Positions 11,986 through 27,094 of a stretch of DNA of 64,000 nt are shown one piece after another. Source of the stretch: Anaerolinea sp. (lineage in GTDB: Bacteria; Chloroflexota; Anaerolineae; Anaerolineales; Anaerolineaceae); assembly GCA_029975965.1 (NCBI GenBank), contig JARKOV010000114.1, forward strand, positions 1-64,000, in the 5' to 3' direction. The position numbers and the translations under genes were made by a program. The stretch's first letter is position 1; each line of letters begins with the position of its first letter. A model generated the notes under the pieces. The model worked only from the letters and a program-made list of their open reading frames with translations, ran no database searches and was not told where the DNA came from.

Positions 11986-14532
11986 TTAGAAAGCCGGGGC
12001 TTCGAAAGTTTTGCCTTCGGAGGTCACCACGTAATAAGGCAGCCAGACCAGCCCGCCGGCCTCCAGGTAGATATCTTTCTTGAGCGGGGCAACGGTGACC
12101 TCGCTGATCTGTCCGGCGGTGCGCGCCCAGCGCTCCTGGACTGCGGCGATCTCGGCGGCTTTTTCTTTTTCGAGGTCTTTGTGTTGTTGGCTCAGCTCTT
12201 CCAGCAGGCGTTTGGCCGATTGCAGGTCGGCTTTGGCTTCGCGCGCCATGCGGTTTTTGCTTAACGTGCCCGAAACGCTGCGCCGGCGCTTGCCGAACAG
12301 CCCGCCGAGCAACAGCTCCGCGCCAGAGGTGAGCGTTTCCACGTTGCGCTGGCTGACCTCGGTTTCATTTTTGTCGACGATATCCTTCTGGCGCTCGATT
12401 TTACGCTCGAGAGCGTCCAGCTTGGTGCGGTAGGTCTTTTCGACTTTGCCAACCTCCGCTTCCAGGGCGCTGCGGGCGGCGGCGTCGCATTTCTGGCGGA
12501 AGGTTACCTGGCTGTCGTCGGGCGAGCCAAACAACTTGAGCGCCTGGTTGCTGAAGAGGCGCAGCTCGCCCTTGCGGTAGACCCAGTCGATGAAATCTTT
12601 TTGGAACGTGGCCAACTTGCTCCCGGCGGACAGCCAGTCGGGGAGAGGGAAGAAGCGCGTATCCGGCAGAGGCTGGGTGTCGAGCCGTTTTGGATCGACC
12701 GGCTCGTGCGCGGCGGCGTCCCAATCGGGGCGCGGGCCCGACAGGCTCTCCACCAGGGCGGCGAAGCGGCGCGTATCGTTCAAGCCGTAGGTGCGATTGA
12801 TGTAACCGACCTCCGCCTGGCAGAAGAGCGCGGGACGGTACACCATGCCTTCCGGGCGGACCTGCCCGGGGTAATTGCCGCCGAGTTTCGCCAGCGCCTG
12901 GCTGAGGCTGAGGTCGGGCGCGAGGAAGTAGGCGCTTGTCCCCGCCGGCGGCGGGGGTGGGGTGCGCGTCACGCCGCCCGTTACACCTGCGACCGGGGGC
13001 GTGTCGGCGGTTTTCATCGTGGCGGCGGTGCCCGGCGCCGGGTAAGCGCCCTGGACGGGAGCCGTCACCGGCGCGGCGGCGGGCATGGCTGCGGCGGGCG
13101 CCGGCTGGGAGACCCCTTCTGGCGCGGCGCCGAGCGGTTTGAGGCCGCCCAGTTGGGCGCGGCTGAGCGGCCCGGCCAGGTAGTTCATGCACCAGCGCGG
13201 CTGAAAGGTGAACGCGCCGCTGCGGTTGTGCACGTTGTGCAGCAGGAAGACGCGCGGACGCAGGCCGGAGATCATTTTGTCATAGGTGGCGCGGTCCACA
13301 CCGCCTTCGATCGACTCCAGTCCGTCGAGCAGGCGCATCTTGTCGCGGTCGGTCTGCAGGCGGCCGATAAACCAGGTGCCGGCGTTCGACAGGCCTTTGT
13401 AATCCAGGTCGACCGGGTTCTGGGTGGCGAGGAGCAAGCCCAGACCGAAGGCGCGCGCCTGTTTGAGCAGGCGCAGCAGCACCGGTCGTGAGGGCGGGTT
13501 GGCGATGGGGGGAAGGTAGCCGACGATTTCATCGAAGGCGAGCAGGGCGCGCAACCCGGAGCTGCCGCGCTGAGCGCGCATCCACGACTCGACGGAGGCG
13601 AGCAAAAGGGTGACAAAGAACATGCGCTCGTTGTCGTTGAGGTGAGCTAGGTAGAAAATGCTCATCCGCGGCTTACCTTGCGCGGTGTAGAGGAAATCCT
13701 GCACTTCGATGGGCTGGCCTTCGACCCAGCTCTGGAAAGAAGGCGAGGCGAGGAAGTTGTTGAGCAGCAATGCCAGGTCGAAGCGGTCTTTTTCGGGAAA
13801 GAACGAGTCGACCGGGAAAGCGCCCAGGCGCTCGATGGGTGGTTTCTGGGTTTGCAAGATCAACTCGGTCAGGTCGAGCGCGTGGTCTTTGCTCCAGGCG
13901 TTTTCGAGGATATTGCTGAGCAGGATGTGCTCTCGCGAGCGCAGCGGGTCGATGTCTTTCATGCCGACCAGACCGAGCAGGGCGGTGACCGTGGCCGATA
14001 TGCGCTCGCGCAGGATCTCGCGGTGCTCGTCCCAGTTCAAGCCGTGCGGTGGGGCGAACGAAGAGAGCAGGTTGACCGGCGTGCCGGCGGTGGAGCCGGG
14101 GGTGTAGATGACGTAATCCACCGCCTGCTGCAGGGCGACCAGTTCGTCGCGATCGAGATCCCAGTTCTTGAGCCCGTCCCGCCAGCGACCGGCGGTGGTC
14201 TCGGCGAGTTGGGCGACGGTCACATTCTCGCGTCGCGCGGTTTCGGGGTCGATCCACGGCTCGAAATCGCCGGGCAGCAGGTCGGGGAAGTGCAGCAACA
14301 GGTTGGTCAGGTCGCCTTTCGGGTCGATGACGATGGACGGCAGGCCGCGCATGGCCGCCTCTTCGAGCATGCCGATCAGCAGCCCGGTTTTGCCGGAGCC
14401 GGTCATGCCGACGATGATGCCATGCGTGGTGAGATCGTCGGGATCGTACCGCACCGTTTCCATGGTGGCGGGTGATTGCTTGTCGCTTGCCAGGTCGACC
14501 GTTCGACCGATATAGAATGAAGAGTCGCTCAT
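11986..14532 (-). CDS. HerA-like helicase/ATPase (DUF87 family)
   Basis: The 848-residue protein belongs to the HerA/FtsK-type hexameric ATPases. G42-MTGSGKT-49 is the Walker A loop, LLAFDEIVGYLPP is Walker B, and LKQARAFGLGLLLATQNPVDLDYKGL is the characteristic sensor and arginine-finger region. A Pro/Ala linker follows at about 480-545. The C-terminal third has a long coiled coil (KVEKTYRTKLDALERKIERQ onward, about residues 690-820). HerA usually pairs with the NurA nuclease; no nuclease gene is adjacent, so a role in DNA repair, conflict or partitioning is open. It stands before a membrane-anchored gene transcribed in the same direction 58 bp upstream. Confidence 0.82.
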   Translation of the reverse strand: MSDSSFYIGRTVDLASDKQSPATMETVRYDPDDLTTHGIIVGMTGSGKTGLLIGMLEEAAMRGLPSIVIDPKGDLTNLLLHFPDLLPGDFEPWIDPETARRENVTVAQLAETTAGRWRDGLKNWDLDRDELVALQQAVDYVIYTPGSTAGTPVNLLSSFAPPHGLNWDEHREILRERISATVTALLGLVGMKDIDPLRSREHILLSNILENAWSKDHALDLTELILQTQKPPIERLGAFPVDSFFPEKDRFDLALLLNNFLASPSFQSWVEGQPIEVQDFLYTAQGKPRMSIFYLAHLNDNERMFFVTLLLASVESWMRAQRGSSGLRALLAFDEIVGYLPPIANPPSRPVLLRLLKQARAFGLGLLLATQNPVDLDYKGLSNAGTWFIGRLQTDRDKMRLLDGLESIEGGVDRATYDKMISGLRPRVFLLHNVHNRSGAFTFQPRWCMNYLAGPLSRAQLGGLKPLGAAPEGVSQPAPAAAMPAAAPVTAPVQGAYPAPGTAATMKTADTPPVAGVTGGVTRTPPPPPAGTSAYFLAPDLSLSQALAKLGGNYPGQVRPEGMVYRPALFCQAEVGYINRTYGLNDTRRFAALVESLSGPRPDWDAAAHEPVDPKRLDTQPLPDTRFFPLPDWLSAGSKLATFQKDFIDWVYRKGELRLFSNQALKLFGSPDDSQVTFRQKCDAAARSALEAEVGKVEKTYRTKLDALERKIERQKDIVDKNETEVSQRNVETLTSGAELLLGGLFGKRRRSVSGTLSKNRMAREAKADLQSAKRLLEELSQQHKDLEKEKAAEIAAVQERWARTAGQISEVTVAPLKKDIYLEAGGLVWLPYYVVTSEGKTFEAPAF

Positions 14533-14590
14533 CGTTTTCCTTCCCCTTGCGCACAGGCGCTAAAAATGGCGAATAAGAATCGTCTCGAAC

Positions 14591-15112
14591 CTAAGGCTCA
14601 ATCGTAACCTGTACGGATGAATTTTTGGTGCGCCGCCCGCTGAGCACGCCGAGCGTACCGCCATACTGGCCCGGCCAGAGGGCCGAAAGCTGGAACGTGA
14701 TGACCCTGGATTGGCCGGATGGAATCTCGAGGGTGAGGCGGTAGCCGACCTGCCCGGCGTAATCGGTCGTGCCGTTGCTGGCGGGCGAGACGCCGGTCAC
14801 GTCGGCCCCCTCGAGCAAATTCTTCGGCAACTGCACTTCGGTGACGGTGAGGGCACCCTGACCGGTGTTGGTCACCGACACGGTGACGGCGAAGGAATCG
14901 CCCCTGGAGATGGCCGGCGGGGCAGACACCTCCACCGCCACGTCCGGCTCGCCGAAGATGGACGACAGCCCGACCCCCCCGAGCAGGAAGAAACCGCCCA
15001 GGCAGGCAAACACGATCAATGCGGCGCTGCAGGTGATCAGCAGCGTTCGGCGGCGGCTGCCGGGGACGAAAAGGGGCAGGGCCGGGTTGGTTCCAGAGGG
15101 GTCGTTGCTCAT
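14591..15112 (-). CDS. Membrane-anchored protein with CARDB/DUF11-like beta domain
   Basis: The 173-residue product has a short cytoplasmic start, one transmembrane helix (about residues 21-45, LLITCSAALIVFACLGGFFLLGG) and an external domain with the pattern AISRGDSFAVTVSVTNTGQGALTVTEVQLP, typical of CARDB or DUF11-like immunoglobulin-fold modules. No enzyme motif is visible. I start at the ATG at 15112 because upstream residues look unlike a signal-anchor N-terminus, though its ribosome site is weak. Confidence 0.65.
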   Translation of the reverse strand: MSNDPSGTNPALPLFVPGSRRRTLLITCSAALIVFACLGGFFLLGGVGLSSIFGEPDVAVEVSAPPAISRGDSFAVTVSVTNTGQGALTVTEVQLPKNLLEGADVTGVSPASNGTTDYAGQVGYRLTLEIPSGQSRVITFQLSALWPGQYGGTLGVLSGRRTKNSSVQVTIEP

Positions 15113-15240
15113 CGCTATTTCACCGGTGCGGCGCGCCAGGCCGCCGCAACCGTTTAAATCATAAACCACATTGCAGCATTGTGCAACTTACCCTGCCATC
15201 TCAAGCCGGCCTGGCTGGCCAGGCTGCGCTTAATGACAGG

Positions 15241-15293
15241 TTGAAACCCGCTTCGGGGCGTGCTACGCTTCTCTTGCTAGAACAAATATTCTA
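15241..15293 (+). promoter_or_regulatory. Promoter and LexA-like operator of the phage-like cluster
   Basis: TTGAAA (15241-15246) and TACGCT (15264-15269) are 17 bp apart. The 16-bp sequence TAGAACAAATATTCTA (15278-15293) has perfect 5-bp inverted arms around 6 bp and would cover the transcription start. It differs at only one position from the box at 4755-4770. It resembles Gram-positive LexA boxes (GAAC-N4-GTTC) with one base changed. The cluster's first ribosome site follows directly. Confidence 0.7.
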
Positions 15294-15304
15294 ATGGAGG
15301 CAGG

Positions 15305-15631
15305 ATGGCGAACGGCCGCAGAAGAGGCAAGCAGCCGGCGAGCAACGCGGCGGAAGCGGTGGACCTGACGGAAGAAATCGTCCGCTTGCGCGAGCTGATC
15401 CGGCAGATGGAGGAAGCCTTCAACGCGCAGAGCGAGCTTTCGCACCGGTTGCGCATCATGGCGATCATCTGCCAGTCCAGCGCCCGGCTGGCTCAGGTGC
15501 TGAAAGTGCAGAACCAGCTTGGCGGGGGTAGCGCGTTGGTGCAGGAGATCCAGCGGGTGGCAGACCAGGTGCGCCAGGAGCTGGAGAGCCGCGGTTGGAT
15601 CGAGCCAGGCTTGCAAACCGGCGAGAAATGA
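15305..15631 (+). CDS. Small helical protein, first gene of phage-like cluster (possible terminase small subunit)
   Basis: The 108-residue protein is basic at its N-terminus (NGRRRGKQP) and otherwise almost entirely helical, with LTEEIVRLRELIRQMEEAF as a likely coiled coil. GGAGG lies 6 nt before the ATG. It directly precedes the terminase large subunit gene, the usual place for a DNA-recognising small subunit, but I see no clear helix-turn-helix, so the role is positional inference. Confidence 0.6.
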   Translation: MANGRRRGKQPASNAAEAVDLTEEIVRLRELIRQMEEAFNAQSELSHRLRIMAIICQSSARLAQVLKVQNQLGGGSALVQEIQRVADQVRQELESRGWIEPGLQTGEK

Positions 15632-15919
15632 TCGCGCAGGCCGGGGATGGTGAGCGCCTGGCAGGCAGGCGAAGCGCGCGGAGCGGATGAGCCAATGCTG
15701 ACCCGGCTGCACGGTGGAGCAATTCCAGCCCAACGGCGCGATGCCCTCGCGAGGTGCGAAGGCGCCGGGGCACCCTGCGGCGGGCAGTCCCCGCGAGTCG
15801 CCAATCCAACCCCTGAAAGGGCTCACCATCTCCGACAGCTCCAACCGGCCTGCGCGCTCATTTTCATCCGATGGAGGCATTTGACCGGGCAACCTGCATA
15901 CAGACACGCTTTCGAATTC
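15632..15919. other. 288-bp region before the terminase start
   Basis: The terminase frame is open through here from an ATG at 15647, but the predicted residues are Arg/Ala/Gly/His-rich and unlike the conserved protein that follows. An alternative TTG start at 15881 has GGAGG only 3 nt away. I treat the stretch as untranslated or poorly conserved sequence. Confidence 0.4.
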
Positions 15920-17386
15920 ATGACCGGGTTCAGCCTGTTTGGCAACCTGCGCCTGCGCGGCTACCAGGAAGAAGCGGTGTTCAAAGTGCTCGACTCGATC
16001 TTCAATCAGAAGGGTCGCTCGCTGGTGGTGATGTTCCCGCGCCAGAGCGGGAAAAACGAGCTCCAGGCGCAGCTCGAGGCGTACCTGCTTGCGATGTATT
16101 GTCACCTGCCGGCGGAGATTGTCAAAATCTCGCCGACCTGGCGACCGCAAAGCCTGAACGCGATGCGCCGGTTGGAGCGCGTTTTGAAAGCCAACCTGCT
16201 GACCCGCGACCAGTGGCGGCGGGAGAGCGGCTACATTTACCGGGTGGGTGAGGCGCGCATTTTCTTCTTCTCGGCTGCGCCGGAGGCCAACATTGTTGGC
16301 GCGACCGCCTCTTTGCTGTTGGAGGTCGACGAGGCTCAGAGCGTTTCCCTCGAAAAATACGACCGCGAGATCGCCCCTATGGCCGCCTCGACCGACGCGA
16401 CGCGGGTGTTCTGGGGCACCGCCTGGACTCCCGAGACGCTGCTCGGGCGTGAGCTGCGCGCCAGCCAGGCAGAGGAGCAAGCCGATGGGCAGCGGCGCGT
16501 TTTCCGGATCAGCGCGGACGTGGTGGGGCGCGAGATACCGTCTTACCGGCGCCACGTGGATCAGATGGTGGCGCGCCTGGGGCGCAACCATCCCGCTGTC
16601 CGCACGCAATACTTCTCGGAAGAAATCGCAGCCGAAGCCGGGTTGTTCCCGGCGGAGCGCCTGGCGCTCATGGAGGGAGAGCATGCCTGGCAGGATGTGC
16701 CGCAACCCGGAGAGACATATGCTTTCCTGGTCGACGTGGGCGGCGAGGAGCGCCCCGGCGGGCAAGGTGACCGGCGGGAGCACGATGCGACCGCGTTGGT
16801 GATCGTCTCGGTCGATCGCAGCGCGCTGGCAGACCCGGCGGTGCGCGCGCCGGTCTACCGGGTGGTGCACCTGCGCCAGTGGCGCGGCGAGAAGCACCCC
16901 AGGCTGAACAACCAGTTGTGCGCGCTGGCGCGCACCTGGAACGCGCGGCGGGTGGTGATCGATGCGACCGGGGTGGGCGAAGGCCTGACCGCTTTCCTTG
17001 AAAAGGCTTTACCGGGGCGCGTGCTGCGCTACGTGTTCAACGCGCAGACCAAGAGCCGGCTGGGGTTGAACTTCATCGAGGTGGTGGAGAGCGGTCGCTT
17101 CCGCCTGCCGCGCGCCGCAGACTCGCGCGCCGAGGAGCTGGTGGAGCTGCTCAGGGCGCAGCTCCGCGCCTGCCAGTACCAGGTGGGGGCGCGGTCGTCG
17201 CAATCGATGCGCTGGGGCGTGGCGGAGAACGCCCGCCACCCGGCGACCAACGCGCTGCTCCATGACGACTTGCTGCTGGCTGCGGCGCTGTGCGCCCAGC
17301 TCGACAAGGTGGAATGGCCGCTGGTGGGGGGCGGGAGCGGGATTATCCAGGGGAGAGATCCGCTGGAAGGAAAAGAGAAATTTTGA
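15920..17386 (+). CDS. Phage terminase large subunit
   Basis: This is the ATP-driven DNA packaging motor with its nuclease. With the start at 15920 the product is 488 residues. The ATPase part has a terminase-type Walker A (PRQSGKNE, residues 40-47) and Walker B (VDEAQ, 135-139), the SAAPEANIVGATAS region between them. The C-terminal RNase H-like nuclease has D271 (FLVDVGGEE), D347 (VVIDATGVGEG) and D448/D449 (HDDLL), so all key acids are present and the enzyme should be active. The start is uncertain: ATG 15647 and TTG 15881 are in the same frame. A heptad array follows the stop. Confidence 0.88.
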   Translation: MTGFSLFGNLRLRGYQEEAVFKVLDSIFNQKGRSLVVMFPRQSGKNELQAQLEAYLLAMYCHLPAEIVKISPTWRPQSLNAMRRLERVLKANLLTRDQWRRESGYIYRVGEARIFFFSAAPEANIVGATASLLLEVDEAQSVSLEKYDREIAPMAASTDATRVFWGTAWTPETLLGRELRASQAEEQADGQRRVFRISADVVGREIPSYRRHVDQMVARLGRNHPAVRTQYFSEEIAAEAGLFPAERLALMEGEHAWQDVPQPGETYAFLVDVGGEERPGGQGDRREHDATALVIVSVDRSALADPAVRAPVYRVVHLRQWRGEKHPRLNNQLCALARTWNARRVVIDATGVGEGLTAFLEKALPGRVLRYVFNAQTKSRLGLNFIEVVESGRFRLPRAADSRAEELVELLRAQLRACQYQVGARSSQSMRWGVAENARHPATNALLHDDLLLAAALCAQLDKVEWPLVGGGSGIIQGRDPLEGKEKF

Positions 17387-17398
17387 GGGACGGATGTG

Positions 17399-17461
17399 GA
17401 ATGAGGAATGAAGAATGAGGAATGAGGAATGAAGAATGAAGAATGAAGAATGAAGAATGAA
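17399..17461. repeat. GAATGAR heptad tandem repeat (9 units)
   Basis: Nine near-perfect 7-bp units (GAATGAG or GAATGAA) begin 12 bp after the terminase stop. They are the same heptads as after dnaX at 9332-9393. Confidence 0.85.
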
Positions 17462-17518
17462 GAGATTCGATTAAAGATAGTTGAGTGAAAATTGAGCAAT
17501 GAAGATGCATTCGTTATG

Positions 17519-17535
17519 CGTCACTCATCACTCAT
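17519..17535. repeat. Short TCATCAC heptad run before the portal gene
   Basis: Two and a half units of GTCACTC/ATCACTC end just before the GGGAGG ribosome site of the portal gene. This is the short counterpart of the arrays at 9441-9508 and 38667-38728. Confidence 0.6.
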
Positions 17536-17553
17536 CCTTTGTGGGAGGTGACT

Positions 17554-18828
17554 TTGATCAAGCGTCTGTTGGATCGCTGGATTGAGCCGGAGGTTGCGCG
17601 GCGGGTCAGGCTGGCGCTGGCCGAGACGGACCAGACCATCACGGTTGGCTGGCGCAATGGGGCCAACGAGCGGGATCGCTACGATTACGACCGCGAGCAG
17701 GTGTTGGACCTGGCGCTGGAGGCCTGGCGGACCAATCCGCTGGCGCGGCGGATCGTGGAGTTGACCACCCAATACGTGGTGGGCGGCGGGTTGCGCCTGT
17801 CCTGCGCCGATGCGGAGGCAGAAGCATTTCTGCGGGCCTGGTGGGATCACCCGTTGAACCGCCTGTCGATGCGCGCCCCGGAATGGTGCGACGAGTTGAC
17901 CCGGGCGGGCGAGCTTTTCCTGTTGCTTTCGACCGACGCAGGCGGGATGAGCTACGTGCGCGCCGTGCCCGCGGCGCAAATCCGCGATGTCGAGTGCGCG
18001 GAACACGACGTGCAGCAAGAGCTGGCTTACACCGGACCGGGCGGGGAACCGGGCGAGCAAAACCGCTGGCCGGCGCTCGATCCGCAAATCGACCGCCCGG
18101 ACGAATCGGGGCAGTACCCGGCGGCGATGCTGCACTACGCGGTCAATCGCCCGGTGGGAGCGCTGCGTGGTGAGAGCGACCTGGCCCCCCTGCTGCGCTG
18201 GCTCTCGCGCTATTCGGGCTGGCTGGAAGACCGCGCGCGGCTCAACCGCTACCGCAACACCTTCCTGTTCACCGTGCGCTCCAGTTTCGCCAGCGAGGCC
18301 GAGCGGCTGGCGCGCCAGCAGTCGCTGGCAGCCAATCCGCCTGCGCCGGGGAGCATCCTGGTGACCGACTCGAGCGAGGAGTGGGGGGTGATCTCGCCGC
18401 ACCTGGAGAGCCAGGAGGCCAGGGAAGACGGCCTGGCACTGAAAAAGATGATCGCCGCGGGCGCCGGCATCCCGCTGCATTTCCTGGCGGAGCCGGAGAG
18501 CGCCACGCGCACCACCGCCGAAGCGGCCGGAGGTCCGGCTTACCGGCGCCTGGAACAGCGCCAGCGTTTCTTTTGCTGGATGGTTTCGGACGTGGCCGGC
18601 GCGGCGCTCCGCCGCTGGTCAACGCTGCGCGGTATGCGCCCGCAAGCTCCCGTGCGTGTGGAAGGCGCCGACCTTTCGGCGCGCGACAACGCCTCGTTGG
18701 CGGCGGCACTCTCGGCTGTGGCGGGCTCGCTGCTGCCGTTGTGGGAAAACAAGCTACTCGACGCCGACGAGTTGTTGCGCCTGGTGTACCGCTTTGCTGG
18801 AGAGGCGGGGAAGATCAAGGACGGGTAG
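17554..18828 (+). CDS. Phage portal protein
   Basis: The product of about 424 residues has the features of a dsDNA-phage portal: a start reading LIKRLLDRWIEPEVARRV, the core segment NPLARRIVELTTQYVVGGGLRLS, WCDELTRAGELFLLLSTD, and further on GESDLAPLLRWLSRYSGWLEDRARLNRYRNTFLF given here in parts, then ATRTTAEAAGGPAYRRLEQRQ. Portals form the dodecameric ring through which terminase pumps DNA. I start at TTG 17554 because GGAGG lies 5 nt upstream; an in-frame TTG at 17539 precedes that ribosome site. It follows the terminase as in most head modules. Confidence 0.82.
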   Translation: MIKRLLDRWIEPEVARRVRLALAETDQTITVGWRNGANERDRYDYDREQVLDLALEAWRTNPLARRIVELTTQYVVGGGLRLSCADAEAEAFLRAWWDHPLNRLSMRAPEWCDELTRAGELFLLLSTDAGGMSYVRAVPAAQIRDVECAEHDVQQELAYTGPGGEPGEQNRWPALDPQIDRPDESGQYPAAMLHYAVNRPVGALRGESDLAPLLRWLSRYSGWLEDRARLNRYRNTFLFTVRSSFASEAERLARQQSLAANPPAPGSILVTDSSEEWGVISPHLESQEAREDGLALKKMIAAGAGIPLHFLAEPESATRTTAEAAGGPAYRRLEQRQRFFCWMVSDVAGAALRRWSTLRGMRPQAPVRVEGADLSARDNASLAAALSAVAGSLLPLWENKLLDADELLRLVYRFAGEAGKIKDG

Positions 18829-18906
18829 CCGGTCGATGATTGCGGGAATAGAACGAAAGGGGCCGGTTGCTCAAGTGGGTTTACCTGGATGCGAGAAGGA
18901 GGTGTT

Positions 18907-20823
18907 ATGCAGGGAGAGAATGTGGGTGAAAGGGCAGAGAGGGCGCGTTTCGAAGCCCTGGGTGAGGTCACCCCGCAAGGTGAGTTTGAGGTGCTGGCGA
19001 TCACCGCCGGCGCAGGCAACGGTTGGCGCTTCAGCGCGCCCGTGCTGGAGCAGTCGTTGGGCCTGTGGGACGGCGTGGAGGTCTTTATCGACCATGCCAG
19101 AAGCCGGCGCAGCGTGCGCGACCTGGCCGGGGTATGCGCCACACCTGCCTGGGATGGGGAGGCGCAAGGTGTGAGGGTGCGGATCAAGCCGGTGGGCCCT
19201 TCGGCAGAGCTGCTCGCCGACCTGGGTCGCGCATGGCTGGCAAACGGCGCTCCGCATCCGCGGGTGGGTTTCTCGGCCGATGTCGTGTTCACGGCGCACG
19301 GCCGCAACGTGCAGCAGATCGTGCGGGTTCACTCGCTCGACCTGGTGATCAACCCGGCGCGCGGCGGGACGTTCGTCCGCGCGCTCAACGCTACAGGAGT
19401 GGATATGTCTGAAGAATTGGAGACCATGCAAACGATTAGTTCGATCGACGAAAGCCAGCCGCAGGCCGGAGACCGGCTGGAGGCGCAACGCACCCAGTTG
19501 AGCCGTTACCTGCTGGAGGCCGGGCTGCAGACGGCCAAGCTGCCGCCGGCGATGGAAGCCTACGTGCGCGGGCAGTTCGAGGGTCGCGACTTTGAGCCGG
19601 CGCAGCTCACCCGCGCCATCAGCGAAGCCCGCAAGCTGATCTCAGACCTGATGGGGCCGGGCGCGGTGGTGGGACCGGGGCGCATCACGGGCATGTTCGA
19701 TTCACGCGACCAGTTGCAAGCTGCGGTGGATGATCTGTTCGAAGTGCCGCGGGACGAATCGCTCAAGGGGCTCAAAGCGCACCGCCTGCAGGGCATCCGC
19801 GAGCTGTACCTGATGTTGACCGGCGACTACGATTTCCACGGCGGCTATGACCACAGCCGCGCTCAGCTCGCCCTGACCACCGATTTCACCGGACTGGTCA
19901 AGAACGCCTTGAACAAGATTGTGACCAACACCTGGGAGATGCTCGGGCGCGCCGGGTATGACTGGTGGACGAAGGTCTGCCTGGTGGAGCACTTCAACAC
20001 GATCAACCAGATCACCGGCATCCTGGTCGGCACGGTGGGAGACCTGCCGGTGGTAGCAGAGGGCGCGGCTTACACCGAGCTGGTGGTGGGTGACTCGCCG
20101 GAAACGGCCAGTTTCACCAAGTACGGCGGGTACGTGCCGCTCACGCTGGAATTGATCGACCGGGATGAGACGCGCAAGTTGAAAGCTTACGCTCGCGAGC
20201 TGGCCAGCGCCGGCTTGCGCAAAATCTCGAAGCTGGTGGCGGCGATTTTCACCCAGGCGGGAGGGCTGGGGCCCATCCTGGCGGACGGCGGCACGCTGTT
20301 CAACGCGACTGCCGCGACGACCGCCGGCGGCCACCAGAACCTGCGCACGACCGCCCTGTCCGCCGCCGAGTGGGACGCGGTCGGGCAGGCGATCTACAGC
20401 CAGCCGATGCTGATCAAGAACTCGGCCGGGGTGTACGGGACGGGTCCCAAGATGGCGATCTCGCCCCGGTATTTGCTGGTGCCGCGCACGCTGCAACTGG
20501 CTGCCAAGCAAATCCTGTACCCCAGCCTGGAGCGGGCGGCCAACATATTCAGCGACAACCTGCAACGCGGCGAGCCGGGCGACGTGGTCACCGTGCCGGA
20601 TTGGACGGACGCGACCGATTGGGCGGCGGCGTGCGATCCGCGGATTGCGCCGGCCATCTACGTGGGCGAACGATTTGGCATTTTGCCGGAGGTGTTCATC
20701 GCCGGCGACGAGCTGAGTCCGGCGGTCTTCACCAACGACGAGCACCGGCTGAAGGTGCGCCACTTTTTAGCTGTGTGGGTGAACGACTTCCGCCCCCTGC
20801 ACAAGTCGAATGTGGCGGGTTAA
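18907..20823 (+). CDS. Prohead protease-major capsid protein fusion
   Basis: The 638-residue product joins two head proteins. Residues 1-165 resemble an assemblin-fold prohead protease: EVFIDHARSRRSVRDLAG contains H63, HPRVGFSADVVF contains S123, and IVRVHSLDLVINPARGG contains H142, giving a His-Ser-His triad. After a linker at about 165-250, residues 250-638 look like a Mu gpT or HK97-type major head protein (VKNALNKIVTNTWEMLGRAG, RDETRKLKAYARELA, PRYLLVPRTLQLAAKQIL, FFRPL-like end). The ATG at 18907 has AAGGAGG 5 nt upstream. The two functions are normally separate genes, and the fusion would couple capsid and protease one to one. Confidence 0.78.
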   Translation: MQGENVGERAERARFEALGEVTPQGEFEVLAITAGAGNGWRFSAPVLEQSLGLWDGVEVFIDHARSRRSVRDLAGVCATPAWDGEAQGVRVRIKPVGPSAELLADLGRAWLANGAPHPRVGFSADVVFTAHGRNVQQIVRVHSLDLVINPARGGTFVRALNATGVDMSEELETMQTISSIDESQPQAGDRLEAQRTQLSRYLLEAGLQTAKLPPAMEAYVRGQFEGRDFEPAQLTRAISEARKLISDLMGPGAVVGPGRITGMFDSRDQLQAAVDDLFEVPRDESLKGLKAHRLQGIRELYLMLTGDYDFHGGYDHSRAQLALTTDFTGLVKNALNKIVTNTWEMLGRAGYDWWTKVCLVEHFNTINQITGILVGTVGDLPVVAEGAAYTELVVGDSPETASFTKYGGYVPLTLELIDRDETRKLKAYARELASAGLRKISKLVAAIFTQAGGLGPILADGGTLFNATAATTAGGHQNLRTTALSAAEWDAVGQAIYSQPMLIKNSAGVYGTGPKMAISPRYLLVPRTLQLAAKQILYPSLERAANIFSDNLQRGEPGDVVTVPDWTDATDWAAACDPRIAPAIYVGERFGILPEVFIAGDELSPAVFTNDEHRLKVRHFLAVWVNDFRPLHKSNVAG

Positions 20824-20897
20824 GGCGCGGGGAGCCGGTGGTCAGGAGCAGTGTCCAGACCGGCGTTGAAAATGCCCTGGCTTGACGAGAGACAGAG

Positions 20898-20982
20898 CCG
20901 CAAGAGATTGTGTTGTTTATCTTTTGTAAAATGTGGGATTTGCCCCACATTTTACAGAAAAATCGAAACACAATCCCGCAAG
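20898..20982. mobile_element. Miniature inverted-repeat element, family B copy 1 (about 70 bp)
   Basis: GATTGTGTT (20906-20914) and AACACAATC (20967-20975) are perfect inverted ends. Inside is a 12-bp hairpin whose arms read GTAAAATGTGGG and its complement. CCGCAAG occurs directly on both sides (20898-20904 and 20976-20982), as a target-site duplication would. It lies between the capsid gene and the next cluster gene. Confidence 0.65.
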
Positions 20983-21001
20983 TGAAGAAAGGGAGATTGC
21001 G

Positions 21002-21505
21002 ATGGGGTATACGCACGACACGGAGTTTGCGCAGTTCATTGCGCCGAACCAGATCATCCGCACGGCGGGCGCCTGGACGGACCTGCTGGCGGCGAACGTG
21101 GTGCGCTCCGACCGGGCGACGGGCGTGGGCAGCTTTACCCTGTTCGTGCCGGTATTGGTGCCTTCGAACGCCGGCCCGCTCAAGGGCGCGCGCCTGAAGA
21201 GCATCGAGCTGCATTACAAGATCGCCACCGCAGCCGGGACGGCGTTCTCGGTCGAGCTGGAGAAGGTCAGCATCAATGCTGCCGGGGTGGTGAGCGGCGT
21301 GGCGGTGCCGGTGACGCTGGATGCCGGGCACGTCACCGACGGGCAGCGCCGCGCAGCCGGCGACCACCGCATGGTGGCGAGTCTCAACGAGCCTGCCTGG
21401 GTCGACAACGATGAGGTGTACTGGCTGAGCGCGGCCGTGTCGGCGGCGGCCACGACGGCTTTCAGCCTGTTTGGCGCGCTGGCGAACTACGATTGGCGGG
21501 TATGA
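21002..21505 (+). CDS. Phage-like structural protein, unknown
   Basis: The 167-residue protein directly follows the capsid gene, where phages often encode a head decoration protein or head fibre. It is rich in beta-strand pattern (SFTLFVPVLVPSNAGPLKGA, SIELHYKIATAAGTAFSVEL) and has no enzymatic motif. GGGAG lies about 8 nt before the ATG at 21002; a longer upstream frame overlaps the small inserted element and is not used. The role is inferred only from position. Confidence 0.6.
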   Translation: MGYTHDTEFAQFIAPNQIIRTAGAWTDLLAANVVRSDRATGVGSFTLFVPVLVPSNAGPLKGARLKSIELHYKIATAAGTAFSVELEKVSINAAGVVSGVAVPVTLDAGHVTDGQRRAAGDHRMVASLNEPAWVDNDEVYWLSAAVSAAATTAFSLFGALANYDWRV

Positions 21506-21667
21506 ACGAGAAATTTACCACCAAGGAGCAAAAAAGCAGGTAAGACGGTCAGCCGGTGAGAAAAGGGCTCAATGGATCTAAAAGTCAACGTGGTGAGAAG
21601 TCGATGATATGGAGGGTGGAGCGTTTGGCTGATCGCTGACCGTTAATCGCTATAAAAAGGAGGAAGG

Positions 21668-21871
21668 ATGCCTGAAAAGGTGAAGGAGTTACTGCGGAGC
21701 CGCAAATTTTGGGCGGCGCTGGTGGGACTGGTGATGGTGGTGGTGCGCGGCTTCGACGCGGACTTCCCGCTCTCGGAGGAGCAGGTCACCTCGCTGGTCG
21801 CGCTGTTGGCGGCTTATATTCTGGGCACGGCGTTGGAGGGCAGCCGGTCGCCCACACCGCCGGCGCGCTAA
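21668..21871 (+). CDS. Small membrane protein, holin-like
   Basis: The 67-residue product has two hydrophobic segments, FWAALVGLVMVVV and VTSLVALLAAYILGTAL, separated by a short acidic turn (DADFPLSEEQ), the layout of small phage holins. AAGGAGG lies 4 nt before the ATG. No endolysin gene is nearby, so a lysis role cannot be assumed; it could be an ordinary small membrane protein of the particle system. Confidence 0.6.
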   Translation: MPEKVKELLRSRKFWAALVGLVMVVVRGFDADFPLSEEQVTSLVALLAAYILGTALEGSRSPTPPAR

Positions 21872-21882
21872 AACTGTTGGCA

Positions 21883-21912
21883 CTCAGCCCCGCATACAAG
21901 TGCGGGGCTGAG
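21883..21912. terminator. 12-bp perfect hairpin within the phage-like cluster
   Basis: The arms 21883-21894 and 21901-21912 pair perfectly around the loop TACAAG, and a few outer bases pair too. There is no T-run, so it may be an attenuator or RNA-processing site between the holin-like gene and the adaptor gene. Confidence 0.5.
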
Positions 21913-21949
21913 CTGCCGGGAACGCCCCTTTGGTTGAAAGGAAGCGGAG

Positions 21950-22399
21950 ATGGCATTTGATTTGACGGCTGCGCTCGAGCGGGTGGAAGAGCTGTTGCTC
22001 GATACGGCAAACGTTCGTTTCAGCGAGGAGGAGATCACCGCCGCGGTCCGCCTGGCCCTGGCTGAGCTCTCGCTGGCTGCAGGTGAGGGCGTTGCGCTGG
22101 AGGGGCTGGACGGCGCGCTGGAGACGACCTTTGCGGAGCACCTGGCGCACCTGGTGGCGCTGGGAGGGGCGGGTTTTGCCGCCCTGGCGCGGGCTGGCTC
22201 GCGGGCCGATTGGGAGCTGCAGGACGCGGGCGAGTTCGCCAACCTGAACCGTTGGGCAGAGCAGCGCCTCCTGGAGTTCCGCGCGCTGCTCAACCGGGCC
22301 TACCCCGATGCGAACGCCCGGATGCGCGACCAGCGCCGCAGCCTGGCGCCGTGGGCAGGCTGGGCGGACGACTTTGGCGAGCGAGAGGAGGGTGGATGA
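21950..22399 (+). CDS. Phage-like head-tail adaptor, putative
   Basis: The 149-residue protein is almost wholly helical (AALERVEELLLDTANVRF, EEEITAAVRLALAELSLA), like the small connector proteins that sit under the portal. It has a Gly/Glu-rich end. A weak AGGAAG site precedes the ATG, and its stop overlaps the next start (ATGA). No specific family is recognised. Confidence 0.6.
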   Translation: MAFDLTAALERVEELLLDTANVRFSEEEITAAVRLALAELSLAAGEGVALEGLDGALETTFAEHLAHLVALGGAGFAALARAGSRADWELQDAGEFANLNRWAEQRLLEFRALLNRAYPDANARMRDQRRSLAPWAGWADDFGEREEGG

Positions 22400-23706
22400 T
22401 GGAGATTGCCCTGGTGCATGGCGCCGCGACGCTGGCGTTGAACGGAAACGGGGTGAGCGGGGCGGTCGCGGCGGCGCGTTTTGCCGATGCGGAGATGCAC
22501 ATGTTGGACGTTGCCTTGCAGGGCGCGCCGGAAGACATCTCAGATGCGGTGACGGGCATCGCCCTGCTCCTGTTCGAAGCGATCCGCACCAACCGGCAAA
22601 CGGCAGAGACCTGGGTTTACCTGCAGGTCACGCTGGCTGATGGCACGACCTGGCGCAGCCCGGTCCACGGCGGCTGGCTCACGCTGGCGCGTGGGGCTGC
22701 CGGGCGGCGGCTGAATGCGCAGGGGGTGCGGCTCAAGCTGGAGCGCGCGGACTGGTGGGAAACGGTCGAGCCGCGCTACGCGACGATCGGCAACCGGCAC
22801 GGCACGTCGAGTGGGCCGGGAGGGGTGACGGTGTACAACCACAAAGACGCGCTGCACGATAATTTCATCGATATCGATGGGGTGAACGGCGACCTGCCCG
22901 CGCCGGTGCGGCTGCTGATGGACGGGGCGGGGATGAGCAACATCGAGGCTTTTTGCGGGTTGGGCTGCTACCTGGAGCGCAGCCAATTCCAGGTGCGCTA
23001 CGAGGGCGAGAGCGGCAGCTCAGGCGCGGGGGTGACCGCGTCCATCCTGGCGGATGCAGCTTGCGCGGGCGGCAGTTACGCCGGCCTGTCCTGGTCGGGC
23101 GCCGCGGAGGTCAACGCGCGGCACTGGCTGGTCTCGCGCCAGGAGGCAGGAGGGCTGGCAGGGCGCATCTTTCGCCCGTTGCTGCGCCTTCAATCGGCAG
23201 TCGGCACCGACGAGGCGCTGTGGCTGGCGCTGATGGCCGGGTACAACGATGCGGGGACAGTCGAGCCGGTCTATCGCGGCGAGGCGGTGAGGGTGCACGC
23301 GGCGCGCCAGATGGTCGTGCTCCCGCCGCTGCCCTTGCCGCCCTGGCCGGCGCCTGCGGGCGGCTCAGAGAACATGCAGCTCTGCTTGCTGGCCCAGGCC
23401 GAAACCGCCGGCGCCCACACGCTGAACATCGACCAGCTTTTGCTGCTACCCTGCGATTCCTTCCTGCACCTGATGCCGGTGTTAACCACATTCCCGGCCT
23501 TCACCGTCGAGCATGACAGCCAGAGCGGCCTGTTGACCAGCGCCGGATATGCTTTTGGCTCGCACGTTGCGGAGGGGCCGGGCATCTGGCTGGCACCTGG
23601 ACGGGCGCAGCGCCTGGTGTTCGCCTTTTCCCAGGGCACCGGCTGGGTGATCGACCACGCGCCGGTGGTCAATTTGCAGTATCGACCGCGCAGGCGGGTG
23701 CTATGA
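22396..23706 (+). CDS. Phage-like tail or baseplate protein, unknown
   Basis: The product of about 436 residues begins MMEIALVHGAATLALNG and has mixed beta-sheet character without membrane segments. ADWWETVEPRYATIGN and the later RLLMDGAGMSNIEAFCGLGCYLE recall distal-tail-type proteins that begin with a beta-sandwich, but this is a loose impression. Either ATG at 22396 or 22399 may be used; the first overlaps the upstream stop. It is coupled to the following gene by an ATGA overlap. Confidence 0.6.
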   Translation: MMEIALVHGAATLALNGNGVSGAVAAARFADAEMHMLDVALQGAPEDISDAVTGIALLLFEAIRTNRQTAETWVYLQVTLADGTTWRSPVHGGWLTLARGAAGRRLNAQGVRLKLERADWWETVEPRYATIGNRHGTSSGPGGVTVYNHKDALHDNFIDIDGVNGDLPAPVRLLMDGAGMSNIEAFCGLGCYLERSQFQVRYEGESGSSGAGVTASILADAACAGGSYAGLSWSGAAEVNARHWLVSRQEAGGLAGRIFRPLLRLQSAVGTDEALWLALMAGYNDAGTVEPVYRGEAVRVHAARQMVVLPPLPLPPWPAPAGGSENMQLCLLAQAETAGAHTLNIDQLLLLPCDSFLHLMPVLTTFPAFTVEHDSQSGLLTSAGYAFGSHVAEGPGIWLAPGRAQRLVFAFSQGTGWVIDHAPVVNLQYRPRRRVL

Positions 23707-25232
23707 GCGCGTCGACCAGCGCCTGGAGTGTTCGTTTCGAAGAGCGCGATTTCAGCCGGCCCATCCCCGCCGGAGATATCCCATGGCGTGTCGAAAGGTT
23801 GACCTGGGAAGCCGAAGGGGGTCCGGCCGAGGGTGAACTGCGCGCCGAGGCCGGGCTGCCGGCGCTTCACGACCTGACCAACCGGCTGCGCTGTGGGGTG
23901 GCGATCGCCGATGAGAGCGGCGCGCCGTGCTGGTGGGGTTACGTTCATGCGGTCGAGCTGCACCTGGACGGGGTGATCTACCGGGTCACGCTGGACGGGC
24001 TGGCGAACCGGGTGGCGGTGCGCTGGGCAGATGAGGACCCTTACGTGGAAGAGGGTCCGCAGGCATTTCAATACCAGACTGCCTGGGAAGATGACCTGCC
24101 TTCGCAGCGCCGGTACGGAGTCAAAGAGATGGTCCTTTCGATCGGCGAGGGCACGCAAGCCGGGGCAGAGGCGGCGCGCCGGACTCATCTGACCAACCGG
24201 CGGCGACCTGCATCGAGCGCGATCCCAGGAGAACGGCTGGAGCGCCCCTTTGCCCTGGTTCATTTGCGCGGATGGTACGCCACGCTGAGCTGGCGCCTGT
24301 GGAGCGAGCCGCGCGGCTTCGCCGGAAACGTCCGCCTGGGGGGCTTTGACACAGACTTTGGGCACAGCCCCACGTACCAGCGGGTGGCGCAATCCTTCGT
24401 CACCGCAGCCGCCGGCGGCTGGGAAGCGGGCGAGATATGGCTGCGGCTTTGGAAAGTGGGCAGCCCGACCGACAGCCTGGCGGTGGAGCTGTGCGCCGAC
24501 AATGCCGGCAGCCCGGGGAGCGCCCTGGCGAACCTGTCACTCGACGCCGGGCAGATTCCGGCCGAGCCGGCCTGGGTGCGGGTGGCGCTACCGGGAACGA
24601 CTGTGCTTGGGCCTGCCACGACCTATTGGGTGCAGCTACGCCGCAGCGGGGCGGTCTCGGCGACACAGTTCCACCGCGTCAAGCGCGAGGCAGACGGCCT
24701 GATTGCGCCGGGGGTGTTCAGGGTTTACGACGGGGCGGCCTGGCAGACGGACGCGGTGGCAGCCGACCTGCTGGTGGGAGTTTTCGGGCGGGAGGAGAGC
24801 ACCGCGCAGATCGCCAACATCTGCTCGCCGGATGCGGCGGGACAGTTCTTGAGCGGGGTGCGGGTTTTGGCTGCCAGCGGGGTGAAAACGCGCCTGTTCC
24901 GCGCCGGGAAGGCGAGCGCCCTGGCAGAGGTCCATCGCCTGCTGGAAATGGGGGATGCGGATGGCAACCGGCTGTCGGCGCGGGTGACCGAGGGGCGGTG
25001 GCTGCTGGTGGAGAAGCGTCCGCCGGCAGAAAGCCCGCGGCTGCGCATCTTGCCGGGCGGGGAGCTGGCGCAGCGCAACGGGCGGCGGCTGATCGCTGCG
25101 GAAAACCCGGTGGGGCAGTGGGCGCAGCTCGATCCGCTCCTGGAGTCCGGCGCGACCGGCGGTGAAACCGGGGCCGTGTACATCCGGCGCGCCGAGTGGC
25201 GCGCGGGGAGGCTGTCGGTGGGGTGGGAGTGA
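23703..25232 (+). CDS. Phage-like tail protein with carbohydrate-binding-like insert, putative
   Basis: The 509-residue protein is the last gene of the rightward cluster. The first 140 residues have the feel of a tail hub or baseplate protein (WGYVHAVELHLDGVIYRVTL). In the middle (about 200-360) is a beta-sandwich segment, including SLAVELCADNAGSPGSALANL and ATTYWVQLRRSG, a pattern found in choice-of-anchor and discoidin-like modules of surface proteins, which might bind a cell envelope. The rest (LAEVHRLLEMGDADGNRL) resembles a tail-protein tail. The role is inferred from position and weak pattern similarity. Its end is 3 bp from the convergent small gene. Confidence 0.6.
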   Translation: MSASTSAWSVRFEERDFSRPIPAGDIPWRVERLTWEAEGGPAEGELRAEAGLPALHDLTNRLRCGVAIADESGAPCWWGYVHAVELHLDGVIYRVTLDGLANRVAVRWADEDPYVEEGPQAFQYQTAWEDDLPSQRRYGVKEMVLSIGEGTQAGAEAARRTHLTNRRRPASSAIPGERLERPFALVHLRGWYATLSWRLWSEPRGFAGNVRLGGFDTDFGHSPTYQRVAQSFVTAAAGGWEAGEIWLRLWKVGSPTDSLAVELCADNAGSPGSALANLSLDAGQIPAEPAWVRVALPGTTVLGPATTYWVQLRRSGAVSATQFHRVKREADGLIAPGVFRVYDGAAWQTDAVAADLLVGVFGREESTAQIANICSPDAAGQFLSGVRVLAASGVKTRLFRAGKASALAEVHRLLEMGDADGNRLSARVTEGRWLLVEKRPPAESPRLRILPGGELAQRNGRRLIAAENPVGQWAQLDPLLESGATGGETGAVYIRRAEWRAGRLSVGWE

Positions 25233-25234
25233 GA

Positions 25235-25507
25235 TCAGGCGGGCGGCTTGCCGCGCAGCAGCTCACGCTCGGTTTCGTCGGCTTCTTTGAAGATGGATTG
25301 CACTTCCTGTTTGATCTCGGGGGTGGCGCTGGGCGTGTAGGAGATGAACTTGATCAGGTCGCGCGCCTGCTGGATGAGCTCCTTGACCTGGGCGAGGTAG
25401 TGGATGTCGAGGCGGCCAAGCTCGGCGGGCAGGGGCACCTCGCGCGCTTTCTGGATCAGCGCACGCGCGCGCTTGATGCGTTCGGCCATGGGGATGAGTC
25501 GAGCCAT
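25235..25507 (-). CDS. Small helical protein, unknown
   Basis: The 90-residue protein is almost all helix and strongly charged (MAERIKRARALIQKARE, YLAQVKELIQQARDLIKFIS). AAAGGA lies before the ATG at 25507. It is convergent with the phage-like cluster, with stops only 3 bp apart, and no known family is evident. Confidence 0.65.
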   Translation of the reverse strand: MARLIPMAERIKRARALIQKAREVPLPAELGRLDIHYLAQVKELIQQARDLIKFISYTPSATPEIKQEVQSIFKEADETERELLRGKPPA

Positions 25508-25582
25508 GGGCAAATCCTTTGAAATGGGGATAGAGCAATTGTAATCGATCCTGTGAGCCTCAACCGGCGCGGCGTGCCATCC

Positions 25583-25657
25583 AATTCGGGCGGTAGGGCG
25601 CCGTCTCCCTGAGTCCCGATGGTGGTTTTCTTTAGGGGCACGACCTGTCGCGCCCCT
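25583..25657. repeat. Palindromic intergenic repeat, left of the MFS gene
   Basis: AATTCGGGCGGT (25583-25594) followed about 40 bp later by the imperfect palindrome AGGGGCACGAC...GCGCCCCT (25634-25657). The same two parts occur, in the same order, at 26896-26954, so the pair brackets the MFS gene. Confidence 0.6.
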
Positions 25658-25671
25658 ACTATAATATCTCT

Positions 25672-26886
25672 ATGCTCCAACGCGCGGCCGACGCTTTGCA
25701 CCGTAACCCATTCCCGCGCCAGTTCTGGCTGATGTTCTGGGGAATGCTGGTGAGCGCGATCGGCGCGCACATGATCTGGCCGTTCTTGCTGATCTACGCC
25801 AGCCAGAAACTCGACCTGCCCTTGGCGGCGATCGCCAGCCTGATGACGGTCAGCTCTGGAATGGGCCTGATCTCTTCTTTCGCCAGCGGGGCGATCGTCG
25901 ACCGGCTGGGGCGCAAGTGGGCGATGGCGATCAGCCTGGTGATGAACGGGCTCGGGTACCTGGTCTTCAGCCAGGCGACCACGCTGCCGGGTTTTGCTCT
26001 GGCGATGGCGATCACCGGCACCTTCAATCCCATCTACCGGGTGGGCGCCGATGCGATGCTGGCCGACCTGGTCGGACCGGAAAAGCGCGCGGATGCTTAC
26101 GCCTGGATGCGCATGGGCAACAACGTTGGGGTGGCGCTGGGTCCGGCGATCGGCGGTTTTGTTGCCACAACCTCGTACGCGCTGGCGTTTTACGCGGCGA
26201 CCGCCGGGCTGGCCTTTTACGGCCTGCTGGTGGCCTTTTTTGCCCGCGAGACGCTGCCCGCCGGTAACCGGGCGGCGGGTGCGCTCGAACGCGAGCGTTT
26301 TGGGGGCTACGAGCGGGTCTTGCGCGACCGGGGCTACATGCGCTTCATCCTCAATTACATCCTGGTTTCGATGGTCATGGCGTTGATCTGGGTTCTGCTG
26401 TCGGTCTACACCAAAGAACAGTTCGGCATCCCCGAAAATCGCTACGGTTTCATCCTCTCCACCAACGCCTTGATGGTGATCCTCTTCCAACTGGGCGTGA
26501 CGCAGGTGACCAAACGCTACGCCCCGCAACGGATGATGGCCTTGGGCTCATTTTTCTACGCTTCGGCGGCGCTGATCATCGCTTATGCGAGCGGGTTCTG
26601 GGGTTTTTGGGCCAGCATCGTGGTGATGACGGTGGGTGAGCTGGCGCTGGTGCCCACCTCCAGCAGCTACGCGGCCAACCATGCCCCGCCAGAGATGCGC
26701 GGGCGCTACATGAGCCTGTACGGCCTGACCTGGGGCGCGGCATCCGGGATCAGCCCGGTGGTGGGCGGGTTGTTGAGCGACACGCTCGGTCCGCGAGCCC
26801 CGTGGTTTGCGGGGGTGTTGATCGGGTTGGTGGCGGTGGCAGGATTCTTGCTACTGGAAAGGGGGAGTGATCTCACCCGGCGCTGA
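25672..26886 (+). CDS. MFS transporter
   Basis: The 404-residue protein has 12 predicted transmembrane helices and the loop motif DRLGRKWAMAISLV between helices 2 and 3, typical of MFS drug or sugar exporters (DHA1-like). The substrate is not deducible. TATAAT (25660-25665) lies 6 nt before the ATG with no ribosome site between, which fits a leaderless transcript. The gene is bracketed by the short palindromic repeat at 25583-25657 and 26896-26954. Confidence 0.88.
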   Translation: MLQRAADALHRNPFPRQFWLMFWGMLVSAIGAHMIWPFLLIYASQKLDLPLAAIASLMTVSSGMGLISSFASGAIVDRLGRKWAMAISLVMNGLGYLVFSQATTLPGFALAMAITGTFNPIYRVGADAMLADLVGPEKRADAYAWMRMGNNVGVALGPAIGGFVATTSYALAFYAATAGLAFYGLLVAFFARETLPAGNRAAGALERERFGGYERVLRDRGYMRFILNYILVSMVMALIWVLLSVYTKEQFGIPENRYGFILSTNALMVILFQLGVTQVTKRYAPQRMMALGSFFYASAALIIAYASGFWGFWASIVVMTVGELALVPTSSSYAANHAPPEMRGRYMSLYGLTWGAASGISPVVGGLLSDTLGPRAPWFAGVLIGLVAVAGFLLLERGSDLTRR

Positions 26887-26895
26887 GCGCTAACG

Positions 26896-26954
26896 AATTC
26901 GGGCGGTGGGCGAATGGGGAGTTTATCTTCACGGGCACGGCACGTCGTGCCCCT
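26896..26954. repeat. Palindromic intergenic repeat, right of the MFS gene
   Basis: AATTCGGGCGGTGGGCG starts at 26896 and is followed by the palindrome CGGGCACGGCACGTCGTGCCC (26932-26952, given here as arms CGGGCACG and CGTGCCC). It is the second copy of the repeat at 25583-25657, in direct orientation. Confidence 0.6.
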
Positions 26955-27094
26955 GCTTGCCTGGTGGTGGGTTTGTCTCACCAACGGTGGCATGCTGTCT
27001 CGCTGACAACTGAGCTTCGTCTGCGGTCTGCTCCCTCCGGACGACCTTGCATTTTTGAATTTTTACGGCGGTTGATTTATGATACACTTTTAAC

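Follow-up and report, generated by a model that had tools for sequence, protein, structure and literature searches.

What does a run of phage head and tail genes do in a bacterial chromosome when no integrase stands beside it? The question is raised by a stretch of 64,000 nucleotides from Anaerolinea sp. (GenBank assembly GCA_029975965.1, contig JARKOV010000114.1, positions 1 to 64,000), termed here the window, in which a rightward run of nine phage-derived genes covers positions 15305-25232, about 10 kb (Table 1). An earlier note, made from the letters of the window, had seen a packaging and head cluster in it and suggested either a domesticated particle system, perhaps like a gene transfer agent (GTA), or a degraded prophage. 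We consider it probable that the Anaerolineaceae have domesticated the head and tail-tip module of a tailed phage, pass it on mostly by vertical descent and use it, most likely, as a GTA. The first of the two suggestions is borne out by conservation across the family, colinearity, rough congruence with the host gene polA, purifying selection and the lack of any integrase match, each of which is described below.

A scan of GTDB species genomes gave seven relatives of the capsid, the best at 79 percent in Anaerolinea thermolimosa, which we take to belong to the Anaerolineaceae of the phylum Chloroflexota; in this species the cluster has the same gene order and lies between the recR side and polA. 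Among 147 genomes of the family, the capsid was found in 101 and the large terminase (TerL) in 104, both in 93 and either in 112. A single TerL match was obtained in 91 of the 104 TerL-bearing genomes and more than one in 13, several of these being fragments at contig ends. At the locus of Flexilinea flocculi, a named strain of the family, the capsid alone was confirmed. Of 400 genomes sampled from the order, 105 gave a match, and many of these belong to the same family. In one Anaerolineales genome (G002), TerL was matched on six contigs, once on each, two of these matches being short pieces, and some relatives are multi-copy.

Gene order was compared in an architecture set of 43 loci, made up of the window, the A. 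thermolimosa locus (L001), L003 and 40 loci from the family, none longer than 20 kb, which were picked from the 101 capsid-bearing genomes for long contigs and a spread of identity and mapped with hidden Markov models (HMMs). Counted with HMMs that were built from these same loci, the capsid is present in all 43, the adaptor in 42, the small membrane protein and the portal in 40 each, TerL in 38, the TerS-like gene (homologous small genes just 5' of TerL, window counted) in 37, a GH25 lysozyme in 26 and the decoration-like protein in six. TerL, portal and capsid are colinear on one strand in all 38 loci that have the three, and span 8.2-11.9 kb, with one locus of 5.7 kb lying at a contig end. 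This is the conserved, syntenic cluster that the earlier note had proposed to look for.

Sequence constraint was found in the same genes. The Walker A and B motifs and nuclease aspartates of TerL are invariant in 38 of 38 aligned proteins and intact in the window, just as the catalytic residues had been read from the window at the outset. In the protease fused to the capsid, the presumably catalytic His is kept in 42 and the Ser in 41 of 42 aligned sequences. The ratio of nonsynonymous to synonymous substitution (dN/dS; Nei-Gojobori), a measurement that had also been proposed, ranged over 0.06-0.31 for TerL, portal and capsid, and every computable value from the ten pairs stayed below 0.54. 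These values come from the cluster genes by themselves; distant pairs approach saturation at synonymous sites, and for one TerS pair no value could be computed.

Within the window, the terminase-to-tail cluster is real, since TerL, the portal and the protease-capsid fusion were confirmed by Pfam and PHROGs, and the TerS-like gene is added as a ninth member. All cluster genes have open frames; the real start of TerL is perhaps further in, near 15881. The decoration-like, holin-like, adaptor and first tail genes have no family match in Pfam or PHROGs, and the second tail gene has a single weak match of unknown function; in the HMM map these genes are conserved in place among relatives. The TerS-like protein gave a sub-cut-off YicC match in Pfam and nothing further. 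The decoration-like family is also found in several viral-contig relatives. The small membrane protein corresponds to our family F8, of which a relative's copy was scanned with no Pfam match. Families F9 and F10, whose members are together counted as the adaptor, are homologous (hhalign 99.5 percent); a weak match to phrog_399, a "structural protein", was seen in two of 17 members, and a sequence search against solved structures reached E 0.24 at best. Between TerL and the portal lies an imperfect 14-base tandem repeat (17372-17455).

Table 1. Genes of the phage-derived cluster in the window.
Gene product	Position	Strand	Basis and remarks
TerS-like protein, candidate small terminase subunit, 108 aa	15305..15631	+	role suggested by position only
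Large terminase TerL	15647..17386	+	PF17289 1.8e-12; phrog_5909 7.4e-12
Portal protein	17539..18828	+	phrog_10963 5.9e-30; PF05136 below cut-off
Fused head-maturation protease and major capsid protein	18889..20823	+	PF25209 7.6e-30; phrog_133, phrog_4523
Decoration-like protein, 167 aa	21002..21505	+	putative function; family 3' of the capsid gene in 6/43 loci
Small membrane protein, holin-like, 67 aa	21668..21871	+	putative holin, from hydrophobic segment and place
Head-tail adaptor-like protein, 149 aa	21950..22399	+	putative role; families F9/F10
Dit, distal tail protein, 435 aa	22399..23706	+	predicted fold; CBM6/35-like insert at about residues 195-351
Baseplate hub (Mu gp44 fold), 509 aa	23703..25232	+	predicted fold; lectin-like insert at about residues 205-365

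Inheritance was examined in trees of 38 genomes, with L003 and L079-L082, where TerL was not found, left out. The combined TerL, portal and capsid tree has 20 of 35 splits in common with the tree of polA, the sole host gene compared, and the distances correlate at 0.60, the best of 300 shuffles reaching 0.22; taken singly, the capsid correlates with polA at 0.51 and the portal at 0.49. Capsid and portal trees have 22 of 35 splits in common, capsid and TerL trees 17 of 35. The window and four relatives (G001, G007, G008 and G006) branch identically in the cluster and polA trees. The cluster appears to have been inherited vertically with its host, though only mostly so.

The place of the cluster in the chromosome is also partly kept. 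In the window it is flanked on the left by dnaX, ybaB, recR and a herA-like gene, and on the right by a major facilitator superfamily (MFS) transporter gene, a response-regulator/IS200-like fusion and polA, all chromosomal. Within the five-member clade of the window, the site between the herA-like gene and polA is common to the window, A. thermolimosa and L046; L049 agrees with them in its left flank and at the MFS gene but no further, and L047 has neither of these, its polA lying less than 50 kb away on the same contig. Elsewhere in the family, the cluster has TadE/TadG-type pilus genes for neighbours in L052, L053, L054, L056, L058, L060, L067 and L070, and on its other side in L068 and L085; this is perhaps the ancestral site. 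The fusion next to polA (27095-29047 of the window) joins in frame a response-regulator-like domain, below the Pfam cut-off, and an IS200-like transposase domain (Y1_Tnp).

The integrase and attachment sites that a temperate prophage would have beside its genes are not found here. Among the 30 larger open reading frames of the window's flanks, Pfam gave no integrase, tape measure or phage replication family, the last being sought by this one route, and within 13500-27500 the cluster is not bracketed by any direct repeat of at least 18 bases; in the earlier note, too, no integrase, replication gene, recognisable tape measure or attachment site had been seen. The cluster has a guanine-plus-cytosine content of 0.63-0.69 in 2-kb windows, inside the range of the whole window (0.59-0.71). 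In the relatives, an HMM built from six integrases of these genomes matched none of 43 loci (L001, L002, L003 and the 40 family loci L046-L085, 14.5-21.9 kb each) within the fetched stretches. It did match the prophages L176 and L177, controls chosen because an integrase was already listed there. Flanking genes that complete an ordinary prophage, or a lack of conservation in relatives, were the two outcomes named at the start as speaking against a domesticated particle; both were looked for and neither was found.

The two genes at the end of the run, which had been called merely tail-like, are tail genes that can now be recognised by predicted fold. They were modelled with AlphaFold2 from family alignments, the hub alignment being made without P0001, P0013 and P0014, at pLDDT 88.2 for the first and 90.0 for the second. 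The first protein aligns over its full length, interrupted by a CBM6/35-like domain, with SPP1 Dit and further baseplate chains of phages; chains that match this insert alone score equally high, and the Dit matches come from VIA-align, the top 50 of Foldseek being carbohydrate-binding and unrelated chains. Both ends of the second align with Mu gp44 and other hubs; for the lectin-like insert between them other phage baseplate proteins score highest, and the matches of this second protein in a viral structure library are partial. By the predicted fold over the whole protein the first is Dit, and by that of its N- and C-terminal parts the second is a baseplate hub, their closest likeness in fold being the tail tips of siphophages (SPP1 Dit, the lactococcal p2 baseplate) and the hubs of Mu (gp44) and contractile injection systems. 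By sequence, neither matched any of 50,697 phage records at E 0.01, and in a protein database, where each search scored 7,995 candidates, at least nine Dit and at least 14 hub relatives were obtained at E 0.001, own or 98-percent copy included, compared with at least 1,856 capsid relatives at E 1e-10. The hub gene of A. thermolimosa (L001:14520-16815) is found in two overlapping frames, from a frameshift or a sequencing error.

This pair is one of two alternative tail modules. Dit and hub are present in 19 of the 43 loci, window included, families F6 and F3 (module B) in 21, and neither in three. Profile comparison did not tie module B to Dit or hub, the hhalign probabilities being 0.1-0.4 percent; against solved structures the best match for one search was a regulator at E 0.014 and the other search had none, and against PHROGs a single member of F6 matched, at 0.089.

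The Dit and hub genes of long-tailed phages usually come after those of the tube and tape measure, and in this respect the cluster differs from siphophages. The adaptor and Dit frames of the window overlap at 22399, and the adaptor frame adjoins or overlaps Dit in 18 of the 19 Dit loci, so that no tube or tape measure gene lies between them; the exception is L055, where the adaptor match is 3' of the hub. The tape measure model TIGR01760 matched above cut-off in none of 12 genomes, with one sub-cut-off match (E 2.4e-6) at a separate prophage of G001. PF10145 gave six matches in 42 genomes, two above cut-off (G001, G067) and four below (G130, G009, G137, G140), none of them in the cluster. Those of G001 and G067 are on another contig or 1.9 Mb from the cluster and, among the matches listed, 4-8 kb from an integrase, which assigns them to ordinary prophages. 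The distant viral contig L106, which has a related capsid, carries a clear 1531-aa tape measure in its run. The Anaerolineaceae cluster looks like a head, an adaptor and a tail tip.

The earlier view that there is no lysis module holds for the window's clade, where no GH25 was found in the four genomes searched, so that another lysis enzyme would be needed there, but it does not hold for the family: a GH25 lysozyme lies in the cluster in 25 of the 43 loci, the 26th copy (L051) being a fragment that stands apart from it. Pfam bore out the GH25 assignment in a relative (PF01183, 2.7e-27), and among 12 genomes searched it was present in six, five of which have a copy in the cluster.

GTAs are marked by vertical inheritance, by packaging and transfer of mostly random host DNA, and by genes spread over several host loci, in the account drawn on here (PMC9953437). 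In many Anaerolineaceae, the phage-derived head and packaging genes are intact. The window has one cluster, and TerL lies far from the capsid in one family genome, G039 (about 1.7 Mb on one contig), and in several distant relatives. If the cluster acts as a GTA, host signals would switch it on, and the TerS-like protein with TerL would cut host DNA and pump it through the portal into the shell, which the fused protease would mature. The adaptor would close the portal and bind the Dit ring and hub trimer with nothing in between, so that the tail tip would be very short. The producer cell may be opened by the holin-like protein, together with GH25 in many relatives, and the sugar-binding inserts of Dit and hub may then attach the particle to a kin cell, into which its DNA would pass.

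By analogy, the closest published system appears to be FpGTA of Faecalibacterium prausnitzii. FpGTA I/II is reported to have a compact operon of 10.5 kb that encodes TerL, portal, scaffold and capsid besides a possible TerS; it occurs in all 12 Faecalibacterium genomes examined, and forms particles of about 40 nm with no identifiable tails and about 9 kb of DNA (PMC12946183). The likeness drawn here is one of description and lies in a compact operon of similar size with a TerS candidate, TerL, portal and capsid, in our case known from genes alone. FpGTA belongs to another phylum, and FpGTA I is said to encode short-tailed-phage-like proteins, and baseplate, fibre and lysis genes stand in a second operon of 5.5 kb, whereas Dit and hub are here in the same run (PMC12946183). 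RcGTA of Rhodobacter capsulatus is likewise a phage-derived cluster without replication genes whose Dit and hub carry oligosaccharide-binding domains, but it has an alphaproteobacterial host and a stopper, terminator, tube, tape measure, peptidase and megatron, none of which was recognised in our cluster (PMC7296036). The cluster is not of the RcGTA type because no tube or tape measure genes stand ahead of Dit. Very few GTA-like elements are known outside Alphaproteobacteria, according to the FpGTA paper (PMC12946183). Among the matches listed from titles and abstract beginnings of the open-licence literature, none described a GTA of Chloroflexota, and the excerpts of PMC8597652 and PMC8346489 used here do not describe this cluster. 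A conserved cluster in a family with named strains (A. thermolimosa, F. flocculi) makes the GTA question testable in a new phylum, and a tube-less tip would raise the question of what minimum of a phage tail suffices for cell binding and DNA delivery.

The same conservation evidence would also fit a domesticated particle with another job, one that kills or binds cells, interferes with phages or serves as an extracellular part, packaging DNA or nothing and transferring no genes. The sugar-binding-type inserts in both tail proteins suit such a particle, and so does a cluster with no tube or tape measure to carry DNA through the envelope. We nevertheless find it unlikely, because TerL keeps invariant ATPase and nuclease motifs and both TerL and portal are constrained, as would be expected if DNA is packaged.

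Several points weigh against a domesticated GTA and have to be set beside the evidence for it. Particles, packaged DNA and transfer are here predictions from the genes, so membership of the GTA functional class is given provisionally, and tube genes could lie elsewhere, undetected. Thirty-five of the 147 family genomes match neither TerL nor capsid, in a count that takes no account of genome completeness. Three genomes (G043, G048, G049) have 9-10 TerL matches and three others (G143, G144, G148) have two capsid and two TerL matches, so some lineages may carry mobile relatives. The deep branches of the cluster and polA trees disagree; for TerL by itself the correlation with polA is weak (0.36, the best shuffle giving 0.32), and the cluster genes correlate with one another at 0.20-0.40 only, a level reached by one of 300 shuffles for capsid and portal and by two for portal and TerL, so they have not evolved strictly as one unit. 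On the polA tree, at least six switches of the tail module are needed, where 500 label shuffles need seven or more. Twenty-three IMG/VR contigs, either viruses or mis-called host loci, encode relatives, several in the same compact order. The integrase HMM was also without a match in 22-kb stretches of the phage-like viral contigs L106 and L107; with these two, and with controls that had been selected, the test shows only that no recognisable integrase lies within a fetched stretch.

The multiple TerL matches, tail-module exchange, imperfect agreement of gene trees, viral contigs and unmatched viral stretches, along with the different chromosomal sites in different genera, would all suit a small phage or satellite that is still mobile in the family, with integration and replication genes elsewhere or unrecognised. 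We regard such an element as quite unlikely, given one TerL match in 91 of 104 genomes, polA-like branching in the window's clade with the same site in three of its five members, no integrase in the 43 loci, and phage records in which Dit and hub are unmatched, TerL reaches 31.5 percent at best and the capsid stays below 60 percent. A decaying prophage remnant, the second of the original suggestions, is very improbable and was rejected: the small gene set, the A. thermolimosa hub in two frames and an internal stop in the capsid of a few relatives would fit decay, but the window genes are open, catalytic motifs are invariant, dN/dS is low wherever measurable and most of the family keeps the cluster.

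A domesticated module may also have a longer history in the phylum. In a draw of 400 Chloroflexota genomes, 60 have a capsid homologue, nine of them family members. Eighteen of the 51 capsid-bearing genomes outside the family were searched for TerL, and each has a homologue at one place, broken over two frames in one case. In six (G747, G758, G764, G476, G566 and G492) TerL and capsid share a contig at 0.4-0.8 Mb from each other, the distances being similar within two groups of genomes; in others TerL is within about 10 kb of the capsid or on another contig. In distant lineages the cluster may thus exist in versions that are scattered, partly broken or switchable. A wider proposal, which we put forward tentatively and hold to be somewhat doubtful, is that Chloroflexota carry an ancient GTA of novel design, in which the capsid bears a Dit-hub tip and both tube and tape measure are lacking. 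Much of the Anaerolineaceae would have it as a single cluster, and other lineages would have it scattered over the chromosome, with the portal there as a landing site or switch for serine-recombinase elements.

The portal gene is found in two same-strand pieces in some of these genomes, 42 kb apart in G492 (L186/L187) and 224 kb apart in G687 (L188/L189). The positions of the two breaks differ by no more than about eight codons, and each has a serine recombinase next to it (PF00239, 2.4e-26 and 5.8e-11), and the two portal junctions have a word of 10 bases in common in G492 and of nine in G687; to judge from this arrangement, the gene may hold a mobile element or act as a switch. Portal pieces are also separated by 19 kb in G747 and by 68 kb in G764, with less exact breaks.

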